From Flavobacteriales bacterium (GTDB lineage: Bacteria > Bacteroidota > Bacteroidia > Flavobacteriales_D > UBA2798), in NCBI GenBank assembly GCA_019694795.1, contig JAIBBF010000026.1:1-37064 (forward strand): 37,064 nucleotides of DNA. The letters run 5' to 3'. Position 1 is the first letter of the stretch. Every line of letters starts with the position of its first letter. This document shows positions 1,237 through 35,936 of this stretch, piece after piece. Made by a program: the position numbers and the translations under genes. Below the pieces are notes generated by a model. That model saw nothing but the letters and a program-made list of their open reading frames with translations. It was not told the DNA's origin and ran no database searches.

Positions 1237-4200
1237 TTACCATATTACAAAATCGAGAATTAAATTATCGGAACGGGTGGTAGGTTTTTGTTTTCCGTTG
1301 CTTAATTGAATCACCTTTTCATAGGTGTATTTCCTCAATTCCGAAACGCTCATTTTTTTATCATAATTTAAATCCGCTTTAAAATCACTCGAAGCACTCA
1401 ATAGGCAATAGGTAAATAATCCATTTTTCCATTCATTACTTTCCATCGAAAACTCGGCTCCTCCCGATGAAGAAATAATTACAGCGCCCGTTTCATTTTT
1501 AACATCAGCAAATAGAACCTGCATCATTTCAAAGGTATTGGATAATCCAAATACTTCTTTCTGCCTCACCCCTGCTCCAACTGATCTGAATTTTACGTCG
1601 TTGCTGATTTCAACTTCTGCCTTGGTCTCTTTTTCTACTTCATCTTTATCCAATTCACCACTGTGACAGGTATCCATAATCAACAATTTGCGCTGCGATG
1701 GAATCCCTGAAAATAATTGTTCGATTTCCGAATAGGAAACACCCGTTCCCGAAGGATTATCGAAATTCATATCGGATGTACCGAAATAATAATCGAATTT
1801 ATCATCTAAAACACCGTGTCCGGCCATAAAAACAATGACCAAATCTTCGGGTCCTGCCTGAGAAATATATTCTTTTATTCCCAAAACAGATGTACGGGTG
1901 ACCTCCTTATCGAGTAATATTTTAGAGTGGACTTTCACATAATTTTCAGATTGCACTCCAATTTTTGCCGCTACATCTTTTGCATCTTTGGCTGCATATT
2001 TTAAATCGAAACGATCGTCGTTGTAGTCGGATACGCCAATACAAACGATAAACAATTCTCGTTTCACCTCCGATAACTCACACACCACGGAAAATTCTTC
2101 AATTAAGGACTCCGCTCCTTTTTCGTTCATGCAGGAAATGCTGATTTGGTTGGCACCCGAAATCAACCGGATTTCAGTCTCCATATCTATACTTCCACTG
2201 GAGGATTTGCTTAAATCATAACCGGTGGAACCATACATGGGCACACCATTTACCTGAACATGCAAGCGATCCAGTTTGTAGCGTTGATCGCGCATTTTAA
2301 CCTTAACTTTAAGAAGGGGTTCTTTAACAACTAAAGGTATAGTTGATTGATCAAGCGAAATTTCCGGCGCATGAAAATCTGCCGCAAAATTTTCTTCATT
2401 GTAATTCAGCCGTTTTAACCTTTTCTCATATATATAACGAAATGCATTCGCCAAATTGGGAGGAGTTTTTCCTATACGGGAAGCAATGATGTCGGGCCTG
2501 TTCAAGCGCAAATCAAATTGCTCAAATGGATAAATTTTATCGTCCACCCTAAAGCTGACCGCCTGCAATGCTTCTTTGGATGCTGTGTAATAATGATCGG
2601 GAGTTACTATAATGTGATCGCTTACATTGGCGCAAATCAGTGATGCCACTTCGGTGCATTTATTAATATCCCAAAGTTTTACCATTCCGTCATCGGAGCA
2701 GGAAAAAATGAAATTTCCATCCTTCTCCACAATTACTTTATTGATCTGACCGGTTGGATTTTCAAATTTACAAATGGCTGTTCCGCTTTTTACGTCCCAT
2801 ATCCGAATCGAATTATCAATGGGCGATACCACATTATTCCCCGCACCACTCACCAGGTATTTTCCGTCGGAAGAAAAGTTGAGTGTGGTCACAATGTTTT
2901 CATGTCCTTTCCATTGCTTGATTAAACTATGTTTATCGGCATCCCAAATACCAATGGTTTTATCCCATGAAGCCGTAGCTAGAATTTTTCCGTCGGGACT
3001 ATACTCCACATCATTCACCAGGACTTCATGTCCCACCATTTGCGCAATTTCTTTTCCGGATTTCAAATCCCAAATACGGACGGTATTATCCAGTCCACAT
3101 GTAGCAATTTTGCTTCCATCAGGATGGAAACTGCTCGCATAAATTCCACCGGCGTGTCCGGTTAAACGCGCCACCATTTTTCCGTTGCGTATATCCCATA
3201 CTTTTAATATTCCCAAAAAGCCGCCACCCGCTACATAATTTCCATCTTTAGAAAAACTCAAATTCTGAATCAATTCCATTTCCGTATCAAGTCGGTGAAT
3301 CACTTCACCTGTATTGGGGTTATACACTCTCAGATCAATCTGATTACCCATACAAACCAATTTCTCTCCATCGGGAGAAAATTCTACCGGAAAAAAACCG
3401 TCAATTTTTCGTTCAATGCGCAAGGCAGAAATATTCCAGAGTTTAATGGAAATATCATCTGCAGCAGTAGCCAAAAATTTTCCCTTCTGATCATAAGCCA
3501 TACTTAAAATCCGGTTCCCGCGGGCTTTAAATAGTTTTAGCTCATTTCCTGTTTTGGCATCTACATAGTGGACCTGTTTCCATTCCGGATAAGCAAGAAT
3601 GTCCTCAGTGGGGTGACTCGCCAATGAGGTAATTCCCATGACTGTTTTACCAATGGATTTTAATTTTTTTCCGGATTTAAAATCCCAGATCACCAAATCG
3701 CGGTTATGATCCACAGAAAACATGCGGTCATCTTTGCGCGAGAAACTAATATCCACCATTCTTATTTTATGTTCTTTCAATACATGCAGCACATTCCATT
3801 TCTCCAACGAAAAAACGCGAATATGATTATCGTCGAATCCTGCTGCAAGGTATTTACCGGTTCTGTCAATCACCAATGGGGTGGCACAATACATGTATTC
3901 TTTAAACAAAGGAAAACTTCTCAGTGTTTTTCCGCTGTTAAGATCAAACTCCAATAAATTCCCTAAATGATCGAGAATATATGCTTTGGTGCCGGATAAA
4001 TCCACACAAAATCGTGTAGGTGAAATTTCTAATGTGTAGTCCTTTTCAATTTTACCTGTAAACGGATCTGTTATCACCAGGTGATTGCTGTTGGAGGAAT
4101 AAAGTAATTTTTTCCCTCCCATGCAGTACTCAAAATTGCTGTAAGTAGCCTCTACATCGAGGAGTGAAGAATACAATTGTCCGTTTACGGGATTCCAGGT

Positions 4201-4500
4201 TCTTAGCTGACCATTGTAATTGAGTCCGCTCAAACATTTTCCATCGGGAGAAAAAGCCACTTTTACAATGCGACCATCGTTTCCGGACAAAGTCCTCATT
4301 TCACGAGCCGTGCGTACGTCCCAAATTTTGATGTTTTTGTCGTTTCCACCTGTAACCAAAAACTGTCCATTCGGTGAAAAACTGATGCAGTTAATCTGAT
4401 CGGTATGTCCGGCAGTAACCACCACTTCAGGTTTTTGGGCAATTCCCTGCAAAGAAATCAACAGGAAAAACAGCGATTGCAAAATTGAATTTTTCATCAT
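1237..4500 (-). CDS. exported WD40-repeat protein with C-terminal caspase (peptidase C14) domain
   Basis: A large multidomain protein of about 1087 residues. After a hydrophobic signal-like N-terminus ending near GIAQ, residues about 25-660 hold roughly a dozen or more WD40 blades (repeats ending IKIWDV, VRIWDL, VKLWDI), enough for two seven-bladed propellers. A linker with a possible Ig-like part follows. The last 240 or so residues are a caspase-hemoglobinase fold: a YAAKDAKDV helix, the catalytic His in FMAGHGVLDD (codon 1816-1818, about residue 895) and the catalytic Cys in MDTCHSGE (codon 1666-1668, about residue 945). I chose the ATG at 4500 because it begins a normal signal peptide. 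A start at 4527 would add nine residues before it; the Met at 4497 is equally possible. It is convergent with the GH1 gene and divergent from ccmB, so it looks like a single-gene unit. Substrate and trigger are unknown. Confidence 0.9.
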   Translation of the reverse strand: MMKNSILQSLFFLLISLQGIAQKPEVVVTAGHTDQINCISFSPNGQFLVTGGNDKNIKIWDVRTAREMRTLSGNDGRIVKVAFSPDGKCLSGLNYNGQLRTWNPVNGQLYSSLLDVEATYSNFEYCMGGKKLLYSSNSNHLVITDPFTGKIEKDYTLEISPTRFCVDLSGTKAYILDHLGNLLEFDLNSGKTLRSFPLFKEYMYCATPLVIDRTGKYLAAGFDDNHIRVFSLEKWNVLHVLKEHKIRMVDISFSRKDDRMFSVDHNRDLVIWDFKSGKKLKSIGKTVMGITSLASHPTEDILAYPEWKQVHYVDAKTGNELKLFKARGNRILSMAYDQKGKFLATAADDISIKLWNISALRIERKIDGFFPVEFSPDGEKLVCMGNQIDLRVYNPNTGEVIHRLDTEMELIQNLSFSKDGNYVAGGGFLGILKVWDIRNGKMVARLTGHAGGIYASSFHPDGSKIATCGLDNTVRIWDLKSGKEIAQMVGHEVLVNDVEYSPDGKILATASWDKTIGIWDADKHSLIKQWKGHENIVTTLNFSSDGKYLVSGAGNNVVSPIDNSIRIWDVKSGTAICKFENPTGQINKVIVEKDGNFIFSCSDDGMVKLWDINKCTEVASLICANVSDHIIVTPDHYYTASKEALQAVSFRVDDKIYPFEQFDLRLNRPDIIASRIGKTPPNLANAFRYIYEKRLKRLNYNEENFAADFHAPEISLDQSTIPLVVKEPLLKVKVKMRDQRYKLDRLHVQVNGVPMYGSTGYDLSKSSSGSIDMETEIRLISGANQISISCMNEKGAESLIEEFSVVCELSEVKRELFIVCIGVSDYNDDRFDLKYAAKDAKDVAAKIGVQSENYVKVHSKILLDKEVTRTSVLGIKEYISQAGPEDLVIVFMAGHGVLDDKFDYYFGTSDMNFDNPSGTGVSYSEIEQLFSGIPSQRKLLIMDTCHSGELDKDEVEKETKAEVEISNDVKFRSVGAGVRQKEVFGLSNTFEMMQVLFADVKNETGAVIISSSGGAEFSMESNEWKNGLFTYCLLSASSDFKADLNYDKKMSVSELRKYTYEKVIQLSNGKQKPTTRSDNLILDFVIW

Positions 4501-4543
4501 GGTTAAAAATAGTGATTTCCATCTCACGGGAATCTTTTCTTGC

Positions 4544-4555
4544 TAACTTCGTGCC
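4544..4555 (+). promoter_or_regulatory. possible -7 box directly before ccmB
   Basis: TAACTTCG at 4544-4551 resembles the Bacteroidota -7 consensus TAnnTTTG with one mismatch, and lies only 4 nt before the ccmB ATG. No convincing -33 TTG is visible at the usual distance. If used, the transcript would start at or next to the start codon. Confidence 0.35.
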
Positions 4556-5224
4556 ATGTCAGCAAAAGAGTTGTCGGTACTGCTCAAAAAGGAAATTGCG
4601 TTGGAATTGCGGAATAAAGTCGCCATTTCCGGTATTTTGCTCTATGTGATCAGTACCGTTTTTGTCTGTTACTTATCCTTTCGGAGACTGGATGATCCCC
4701 TGGTATGGAATACGCTTTTCTGGGTTATATTACTTTTTTCGGCCGTTAACACCATTTCGAAAAGTTTCCATACCGAAACCAGAAACCGGCTATTATACCT
4801 TTATACCCTATCATCACCGGCAGCGGTGATACTGAGTAAAATGCTTTATAATATTTTATTGATGGGCCTGACTTCATTGGTCACCCTCCTGGTCTACTCC
4901 ACACTTTTAGGCTCGGTTCCTCTCGAAGGCTCCAATGTTGGGATGTATATTGTAGCCCTCTTATTGGGATGTTCAGGGTTTTCGGGTATTTTCACGATGA
5001 TTGCCGCTATTTCTGCCCGCACCGGAAATAACCTGGGCATTATGGCCATTTTAGGTTTTCCCCTAATTCTTCCTTTGCTGGTAACGCTTATTGAGCTGTC
5101 CGGCATCGCCCTGAGGGGATTAACCTGGGAATATGGCTTTACGGCCATAAGTATTTTGGCGGGAATTAATGTGCTTGTTGTTGCACTCTCTTATTTGTTA
5201 TTTCCTTACCTTTGGCGCGAATAA
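4556..5224 (+). CDS. ccmB: heme exporter protein CcmB
   Basis: Membrane subunit of the CcmAB ABC transporter of cytochrome c maturation System I, in the cytoplasmic membrane. The 222 residues match the family length. A polar N-terminal helix (LLKKEIALELRNK) is followed by about six hydrophobic segments. The stretch beginning FSAVNTISKSFHTE fits the CcmB 'F....l...F..E' region after the second membrane helix. It is the first gene of the ccm operon. The ATPase partner CcmA is not next to it, so it must be encoded elsewhere if the transporter is complete. ccmC starts 17 nt downstream. Confidence 0.9.
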   Translation: MSAKELSVLLKKEIALELRNKVAISGILLYVISTVFVCYLSFRRLDDPLVWNTLFWVILLFSAVNTISKSFHTETRNRLLYLYTLSSPAAVILSKMLYNILLMGLTSLVTLLVYSTLLGSVPLEGSNVGMYIVALLLGCSGFSGIFTMIAAISARTGNNLGIMAILGFPLILPLLVTLIELSGIALRGLTWEYGFTAISILAGINVLVVALSYLLFPYLWRE

Positions 5225-14920: not shown

Positions 14921-15502
14921 CTACAATTCATCATATAAATCCTTCAATCGGTTTCGTAAATGCAAAACAGCATATCGTTTTCTCGAAAGAAGTGTATTAA
15001 CTCCTGCACCGGTGATTTCTGCAATTTCATTGAAGCTTTTGTCCTCGAGTTCATGCATAACAAAAACCTCTCGTTGTTCATCAGGCAATTCATCCAATGC
15101 TTCCATTACAGCCTCCATAATTAAATCATTGGTCATTACCGATTCGCCATCTTCACTATCACCTCTCAATAAATCCGAAAGAAAAAGAGAATCACCATCA
15201 TCATCACGGTGCACCGCAATGCTTTCGAGCGAATCCGGACGTTTCTTTCGGTATCCGTCTGTGATTTTATTACGCGCAACTGTAAACAACCAGGAGGTTA
15301 ATTGCTCAACAGGTTTCATCAAACGGTACGTCTCTACCAATTGGAAAAATACATCTTGTAAAATGTCTTCAGCTTCTTCATCATTGCGCACGCGGTCGCG
15401 AATGAAACGGAATAATCGTTTCCGTTCCTTTTTTACCGCTGCATCAATTTCATGATTTTGCTGTTCGGTCATTTCCAGTGCTATGTTTTCCGGCATGGTC
15501 AT
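14921..15502 (-). CDS. ECF-type RNA polymerase sigma-70 factor
   Basis: A 193-residue sigma factor with only regions 2 and 4. Region 2 is visible as NDEEAEDILQDVFFQLVETY and TSWLFTVARNKITDGYRKKR. Region 4 is visible as LPDEQREVFVMHELEDKSFNEIAEITG followed by the helix-turn-helix GAGVNTLLSRKRYAVLHLRNRL. No fused regulatory domain. The start at 15502 (MTMPEN) could also be two codons later. The Cys/His-rich membrane protein follows closely. The regulon is unknown. Confidence 0.93.
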   Translation of the reverse strand: MTMPENIALEMTEQQNHEIDAAVKKERKRLFRFIRDRVRNDEEAEDILQDVFFQLVETYRLMKPVEQLTSWLFTVARNKITDGYRKKRPDSLESIAVHRDDDGDSLFLSDLLRGDSEDGESVMTNDLIMEAVMEALDELPDEQREVFVMHELEDKSFNEIAEITGAGVNTLLSRKRYAVLHLRNRLKDLYDEL

Positions 15503-21165: not shown

Positions 21166-21750
21166 TTAATCCAGCGCAATCGATTTTTCTTCAACCATCC
21201 GTCTCAAATTGATTAAAGCATAACGCATACGGCCCAATGCAGTATTGATGCTCACATTGGTGGCCTCAGCTATTTCTTTGAAGCTCATATCCGAGAAGTG
21301 ACGCATCATCACCACTTCACGCTGCTCGTCGGGTAAATATTCTACGAGGCGACGAACATCCTTCAGGATTTGGTCTGTAATTAACTTATCCTGAACATTT
21401 TCATCATAAACCCGCAGGCTTCCGAAAATATCATGGTCCTCATTTTTAGGTTCAACCGTAGGCATCTTGGCGCTTCTACGGAAGGTGTCGATAATCAGGT
21501 TATGCGAAATCCGCATTACCCATGGGAGAAACTTGCCCTCCTCATTGTATTTCCCTGATTTTAAAGTGTTGACAATCTTAACGAAGGTATCCTGAAAGAT
21601 ATCTTCGGCTAACTGACGATCCTTCACCATATATACGATGTAAGAAAATACACGGTCGGAATGGCGAGACATTAAAACCTCAAAGGCTTTCTCATTTCCG
21701 TTTTGATATTCGCGAACAAGCTGGGTGTCGCCAAGAACATGAATAGACAT
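21166..21750 (-). CDS. ECF-type RNA polymerase sigma-70 factor
   Basis: A 194-residue sigma factor. Region 2 is seen as DRQLAEDIFQDTFVKIVNTL and LPWVMRISHNLIIDTFRRS. Region 4 is seen as LPDEQREVVMMRHFSDMSFKEIAEATNVSINTALGRMRYALINLRR, split across residues about 140-185. Its sequence type is one I associate with a widely conserved ECF factor of Bacteroidota (recollection, not tested). A near-perfect promoter lies about 110 nt upstream, giving a long 5' leader. No obvious membrane anti-sigma factor gene is adjacent. Confidence 0.95.
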   Translation of the reverse strand: MSIHVLGDTQLVREYQNGNEKAFEVLMSRHSDRVFSYIVYMVKDRQLAEDIFQDTFVKIVNTLKSGKYNEEGKFLPWVMRISHNLIIDTFRRSAKMPTVEPKNEDHDIFGSLRVYDENVQDKLITDQILKDVRRLVEYLPDEQREVVMMRHFSDMSFKEIAEATNVSINTALGRMRYALINLRRMVEEKSIALD

Positions 21751-35342: not shown

Positions 35343-35936
35343 TTGTTTCTGGCTATTTTCCATACAGTTGAGTCCCTGAGCGATGAAAAGCTCCTGGAAA
35401 AATACCGTAGCAGCGGAAACTCCTGGTATGTAGGCGAGTTATACAAAAGATATACCAAAGCAGTAGCCGGTGTATGCTATTCCTATTTTAAAGATCGGGA
35501 TGAAGCCGAAGACACTGTAATGGAAATATTCGAACTGGTTATCAGTGATTTAAAAAAATATGAGGTACAAACTTTTAAACCCTGGCTCTTTTCGGTGGTT
35601 CGACATTATTGTCTGAGAAAGAAGGAAAAAAGTAAAAAGGCATTCGATCATCATCAGGACCTCAAAAAAAATCCGGATTATTTTATGGAATCTTCCGACG
35701 AGCTGTCCCTTTCCTTTTTAGATGGGCAGGTTTCGCGGGATATGCATGTGGAATTAGAAAAAGCCATAGCCCAGTTAAAAGATGAACAAAGAATCTGTGT
35801 TGAATTATTTTTCCTGCAAGACAAAAGCTATCAGGAAATTAGCACAATTACAGGTTACAGTTTAAATAATGTAAAGAGCCATATTCAAAACGGAAAACGA
35901 AATCTTAAAATTCTTTTAGAAAGCCAAAATGGCTAA
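35343..35936 (+). CDS. ECF-type RNA polymerase sigma factor
   Basis: A sigma factor of about 197 residues. Region 2 is visible as DRDEAEDTVMEIFELVISDL and FKPWLFSVVRHYCLRKKEKS. Region 4 is visible as LKDEQRICVELFFLQDKSYQEISTITGYSLNNVKSHIQNGKRNLKI split across residues about 145-190. No ATG exists in the N-terminal region: the frame opens after a stop at 35331-35333 and offers TTG 35343, CTG 35349, ATT 35355 and later CTG. TTG 35343 was taken, so the start is uncertain. Its end overlaps the membrane TonB-domain gene by 8 nt, so the two are co-expressed. Confidence 0.9.
   Translation: MFLAIFHTVESLSDEKLLEKYRSSGNSWYVGELYKRYTKAVAGVCYSYFKDRDEAEDTVMEIFELVISDLKKYEVQTFKPWLFSVVRHYCLRKKEKSKKAFDHHQDLKKNPDYFMESSDELSLSFLDGQVSRDMHVELEKAIAQLKDEQRICVELFFLQDKSYQEISTITGYSLNNVKSHIQNGKRNLKILLESQNG

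Follow-up and report, generated by a model that had tools for sequence, protein, structure and literature searches.

The window, the whole stretch of 37,064 nucleotides analyzed here, comes from a Bacteroidota bacterium and encodes a caspase homolog on its minus strand (4500–1237). A predicted signal peptide comes first in this protein, followed by 14 WD40 blades, a connector and an Ig-like domain, with the caspase domain at the C-terminus. Comparison with its homologs adds two conserved features, an arginine (Arg971) in the linker between the p20 and p10-like parts and an EF-hand-like loop in the p10-like part. We did not find a description of either in the portions of the open-access literature searched, and among these texts they are apparently new. 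Judged from the sequences, the chances are about even that the protein is a soluble, periplasmic caspase-like zymogen, which would cut itself at Arg971, probably with calcium, and use its propellers as a variable recognition part.

Gene Boundaries and Predicted Export

The gene is complete and real. The open reading frame list starts it at GTG 4527, which adds nine residues, and ATG 4500 (1,087 aa) or ATG 4497 (1,086 aa) is a better fit to the homologs; the N-terminus of homolog L028 aligns from the same Met as the window protein. Residues are numbered here from ATG 4497, as in the structure models, and numbers counted from the GTG are 10 higher. All features described below lie on the minus strand.

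Read from ATG 4500, the chain begins with MMKNSILQSLFFLLISLQGIA (4438–4500), a predicted Sec/SPase I-like signal peptide with cleavage before QKP and without a lipobox Cys. This call is based on a simple rule and on comparison with homolog N-termini; it agrees with the signal peptide claimed in an earlier note on this DNA, and either ATG start retains it. The rule is permissive, as 205 of 443 neighboring proteins also pass it, and it is therefore the near-universality of the signal peptide within the family, rather than a single score, that supports export. The rule was passed by 59 of 67 homologs, and the remaining eight comprise five with a signal peptide evident by eye and three that are N-terminally truncated or contain unread bases. 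Among the other C14 proteins of the order 12 of 24 passed, the single-domain ones of 248–331 aa mostly failing. As signal-peptide-like starts are nearly universal in the family and found in about half of these other C14 proteins, exported caspase homologs look ordinary in the sampled order.

The earlier note had regarded an exported bacterial caspase homolog as exceptional. That premise is not supported in view of these common signal-peptide-like starts and of a 2012 survey, which in the part available assigns 98 prokaryotic homologs to a membrane class, most of which carry a possible signal peptide in the form of an N-terminal helix (PMC3501461). The chain ends at the caspase domain and no T9SS sorting domain was found at its C-terminus in an NCBIfam search at E 0.001; T9SS secretion was rejected on these grounds. 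The window protein would probably be a Sec-exported, soluble protein of the periplasm.

The Caspase Domain and Its Active Site

The window protein is a member of peptidase family C14, as seen from its Pfam match, its catalytic dyad and its predicted fold. The C-terminal part (1240–2055), comprising p20 and p10-like parts, matches PF00656 with 49.4 bits, where the cut-off is 21.4; a scan of the genome gave 48.7 bits. Two models were used, one of the full chain built with AlphaFold2 (mean pLDDT 77.7) and one of the C-terminal 475 residues (mean pLDDT 72.3); both were built on eight sequence rows (the window protein and related loci), an alignment of less depth than could be had from the full family. 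The C-terminal model supports the caspase fold proposed earlier, with a Z score of 20.7 to both GSU0716 of Geobacter (3bij) and Arabidopsis metacaspase-4 (6w8s), the joint closest fold matches, and of 19.4 to MALT1. The p10-like region is present in the model and, by structure comparison only, covered by the structural matches. A PDB sequence search with the caspase part alone found no caspase, and a profile search of the PDB found metacaspase-4 at E 0.0013.

GSU0716 has a bacterial caspase fold like that of the window protein (Z 20.7 over 220 residues). Its solved chain of ∼265 residues, in contrast, has no WD40, Ig-like or signal-peptide part. The paracaspase MALT1 has an Ig domain beside its caspase fold, as does the window protein; MALT1 has a different domain order around the caspase, carries a death domain and is cytosolic. 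The Ig-like or FnIII-like β domain of the window protein (2080–2367) lies ahead of the caspase domain and is recognized from the model strands and from weak Foldseek matches (CbhA FnIII modules). It is preceded by a connector (2368–2634) with the family motif Q-F-x(4)-N-R-P-D-I, which has no Pfam match and is modeled with low confidence.

The His/Cys pair reported in the earlier note is present at the places given there, as His894 in AGHG (1816–1818) and Cys944 in DTCHSGE (1666–1668). The dyad is intact in all 67 homologs first fetched and in all 28 fetched later. Examination of the start codon, the fold and the homolog dyads thus turned up nothing that speaks against the note. Asp838 (1984–1986) is a probable S1-pocket residue from a motif match to Asp95 of TbMC2, and Asp942 of the D-T-C motif (1672–1674) takes the position of the second pocket residue, TbMC2 Asp211 (pocket residues as given in the part of PMC6426788 consulted). 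By HMM alignment to metacaspase-4, the first S1 Asp falls one helical turn further on than by the motif match. Both aspartates are kept in 52/52 core members of the family (defined below), and cleavage after Arg or Lys is therefore predicted.

A Conserved Linker Arginine and an EF-Hand-Like Loop

The tails of 67 homologs were aligned, and a core of 52 remained once 10 rows of a distinct C14 subfamily, the three rows of L091, which form a divergent tandem array, and the divergent rows L078 and L093 had been set aside. Conservation in ≥95% of the core members is seen, among other columns, for the dyad, for both S1 aspartates and for Arg971, which is the sole column of this kind between E948 and G1004. 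It lies within V-K-F-R971-S (1582–1596), which fits the family motif [VIL]-x-F-R-[ASN] of a linker that is otherwise variable and acidic. The Arg is found in 52/52 core members (52/54 if L078, without the Arg, and L093, without the motif, are counted), with Phe just before it in 46/52 and Ala, Ser or Asn just after it in 44/52. Ahead of it runs an acidic stretch of 19–26 residues with a mean excess of ∼5 acidic residues. Going by sequence conservation, the arginine would look like the self-cleavage site of an Arg-specific enzyme, and it is a candidate autoprocessing site.

The second feature is DLNYDKKMSVSE (1339–1374), an EF-hand-like loop flanked by two helices within the p10-like part. The pattern D-x-[DNS]-x-[DNS]-x-x-[ILVM]-x-x-x-[ED] fits 48/52 core members here. 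It occurs 51 times in the 52 tails, 48 times at the p10 loop and three times elsewhere. Of 24 other C14 proteins from the order, about one has it at the p10 place. The loop is not a canonical EF-hand: its position 6 is K, not G, in the window protein, and in relatives a hydrophobic residue (W or M) is often found at position 9. The stricter EF-hand pattern used first fits 22 of the 67 homologs, and among the core members a stricter form fits only 20/52; position 9 was freed after the sequences had been seen, which makes the looser pattern post hoc for the first set. Since both this pattern and the core set were fixed after the sequences had been seen, the first-set counts for the Arg and the loop are descriptive.

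A further 28 members were fetched after the patterns had been fixed. By script, 26 of them have the dyad, 24 the Arg and 24 the loop; after reading of L118, L134, L125, L140 and L139 the numbers are 28, 27 and 25, respectively. This later set serves as a check rather than an independent sample, since its members belong to the same order, some of them to genomes that the first set had covered, and were selected for their similarity to the C-terminal half of the window protein. The divergent members L139 and L078 keep the dyad, have neither the linker Arg nor the EF-like loop, and carry DACNSGE instead of D[AT]CHSGE. Four other exported C14 proteins (L101, L099, L102 and L104) have the EF-like pattern near the N-terminus and not in the p10 part.

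Arg971 lies in a low-confidence region of the model (pLDDT about 56–63), and a structural role is for this reason conceivable. The protein would then still be exported and caspase-folded, with the Arg pinning a linker strand, the p10 loop serving as a turn, with or without a constitutive ion, and the activity being constitutive or set only by the propellers and by substrate docking. The model does put R971 in a short predicted strand (968–972), the short linker of another C14 subfamily in this order (L035 and its relatives) contains a common R-G motif, and many members depart from the canonical residue at loop position 9. However, the linker residues on either side of the Arg differ strongly among members and confidence in the model is low here; for a structural Arg this would be unusual. 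Loop positions 1, 3, 5 and 12, which coordinate the ion in an EF-hand, are kept in 48/52 core members. We regard the structural explanation as possible, leaning against it.

Propellers, Paralogs and Distribution

The N-terminal half is built from two seven-bladed WD40 propellers (2635–4428). Profile search of the window protein found 11 repeats, and the full-chain AlphaFold2 model has 56 strands in residues 24–621, which make up 14 blades arranged as 7+7 (counted from the DSSP listing). The double propeller of about a dozen blades that had been proposed is thus borne out. The tandem-propeller proteins 2ymu and 1nr0 are among the structural matches of the model.

Identity to the window protein is 47–23% for the N-terminal halves versus 60–29% for the C-terminal halves, and lower for the N-terminal half in every pair compared. 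Such faster N-terminal divergence is as expected for a variable recognition part on a constant effector. Four family members (L061, L049, L084 and L135) lack WD40 repeats and have the same caspase half behind N-terminal regions without any Pfam match. At L091, three giant C14 genes (frames of 1304–1712 aa) stand in tandem in genome G111; their caspase active-site regions are nearly identical and their N-terminal WD40 content differs. In L038 a further gene of ∼310 aa (L038:12274-13206) encodes WD40 repeats only and is two genes away from the caspase gene; a WD40-only gene is also found near L043, a relative of L038, in a sister genome (G001:C4:58059-58412).

The genome that holds the window has seven C14 genes, six of which, the window gene included, match the window protein from its connector through the Ig-like domain to the caspase domain with E values of 1e-80 or better. 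Within the order, a C14 match was found in 36 of 150 genomes, and the family, at E 1e-80, in 21 of 199 genomes with up to eight copies. In a phylum-wide sample the profile matched at E 1e-40 in 4 of 296 genomes, that of the window among them, a loose first look which may miss some. The order of signal peptide, WD40 and caspase, whose conservation the earlier note had asked about, extends throughout the order and to some Spirochaetota and Delongbacteria, where relatives also occur. In a quick maximum-likelihood tree the window protein and seven others form a well supported clade.

Genomic Neighborhood

The window gene is flanked by a GH1 glycosidase gene and by ccm cytochrome c genes, and the order GH1-caspase-ccmB-ccmC is kept in a second genome of the genus (L040). 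Caspase gene and ccmB point away from each other, their start codons being ∼55 bases apart (4500–4556), and this arrangement is also kept in L040; because of the close divergent starts the two genes may share a regulatory region. The kept gene order could be taken to mean that the partner of the protease is cytochrome c maturation, with the product of a gene divergent from the periplasm-acting ccmBCEF regulating or cleaving a Ccm factor. This is highly improbable, as ccm genes adjoin the caspase gene in none of the other fetched homolog loci, including the nearest in the tree.

Neighbor clustering of the fetched loci gave no general partner gene and only subclade pairs. A conserved operon partner was discarded since no neighbor family stands beside most members, and the description of the gene as a single-gene unit holds, as no neighbor recurs beyond the genus. 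In genome G083 the second gene upstream of a family member (L072:49-1086) encodes a CHAT-domain protein (200.6 bits), CHAT being another protease family of clan CD. The window also contains three genes for ECF-type sigma factors with Sigma70_r2 and r4 matches, at 14921–15502 (minus strand), 21166–21750 (minus strand) and 35343–35936 (plus strand).

WD40 repeats and caspase-like domains are both found in bacterial conflict systems, and the window protein might be an anti-phage or programmed-cell-death effector like the caspase homologs there. The several paralogs per genome would fit such a role, as would a match to the PADLOC caspase model, which is weak (32.5 bits). The surroundings of the genes argue against it: among the 44 neighboring proteins of 12 family loci, PADLOC matched only three, each in isolation (HEAT-ARM, TPR and mad3), and found no system, so a defense island was rejected, and those neighbors recognizable by sequence look housekeeping. 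The window gene itself sits between glycosidase and ccm genes, and an exported effector would be unfit for cytosolic phage sensing. We therefore consider an effector of this kind improbable.

Comparison With Known Caspase Homologs

Fusion of caspase and WD40 domains has itself been described before. WD40 repeats were found in 10.9% of 671 prokaryotic caspase homologs in the 2012 survey, whose metacaspases likewise include WD40-C14 proteins and N-terminal helices that are likely signal peptides; the portion of the survey at hand makes no mention of EF-hands, and a linker Arg is not among the features described there (PMC3501461). It also reports Bacteroidota genomes with many copies, such as Haliscomenobacter hydrossis with 28. 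The cyanobacterial WD40 metacaspases or orthocaspases (cbMC-beta) resemble the window protein in combining C14 and WD40 in one chain, with 7–15 repeats, often 14 (PMC2853523; PMC8283722, in the parts consulted). Their accessory domains are, however, mostly C-terminal to the caspase (PMC8283722), whereas the window protein has its signal peptide, propellers and Ig-like domain first and the caspase last. The words "signal peptide" are absent from PMC2853523 and PMC8283722.

Type II metacaspases such as plant metacaspase-4 have Arg/Lys specificity and a p20-p10 linker that is cut on addition of millimolar calcium, according to the sections of PMC5756287 consulted; for the window protein, cleavage in the linker and dependence on calcium are only predicted. 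The same sections report type II enzymes only from the green lineage, and these lack the propellers and the predicted export of the window protein. We use type II activation as an analogy for linker cleavage and not as a claim of membership. Orthocaspases are described as calcium-independent (same sections of PMC5756287), and calcium control should therefore not be assumed for the window protein.

A Possible Activation Mechanism and Its Implications

Returning to the reading of the window protein as a periplasmic zymogen, the protease would be made inactive and exported by the Sec route to the periplasm. On activation, the caspase domain would cut itself or its neighbor after Arg971 in the disordered acidic linker, a calcium ion probably being held in the EF-hand-like loop of the p10 part. 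With two aspartates in its S1 pocket, the active enzyme would then cleave behind Arg or Lys. The double propeller of 14 blades would be the variable part, which in each paralog would sense a different partner or dock the protease on it. The earlier statement that the protein has no known trigger or substrate still holds, although the family sequences do suggest a mode of activation. Our guess is that its role lies in envelope quality control or stress signaling rather than in cell suicide.

Extended to the whole, this would describe a large family of exported caspases, all zymogens that become active in the periplasm through calcium and self-cleavage at [VIL]-x-F-R, with a double-propeller receptor for each paralog. 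In this full form we hold the proposal to be doubtful and put it forward tentatively. Very few bacterial caspase homologs have been characterized biochemically, one orthocaspase by 2017 according to the available part of PMC5756287. The family, present in several copies in some Bacteroidota, yields testable claims on one arginine, one loop and one compartment. If the proposal is true, it would amount to a periplasmic counterpart of caspase zymogen activation, and if the enzymes are active in the periplasm, caspase-type regulated proteolysis would be placed in the bacterial envelope.
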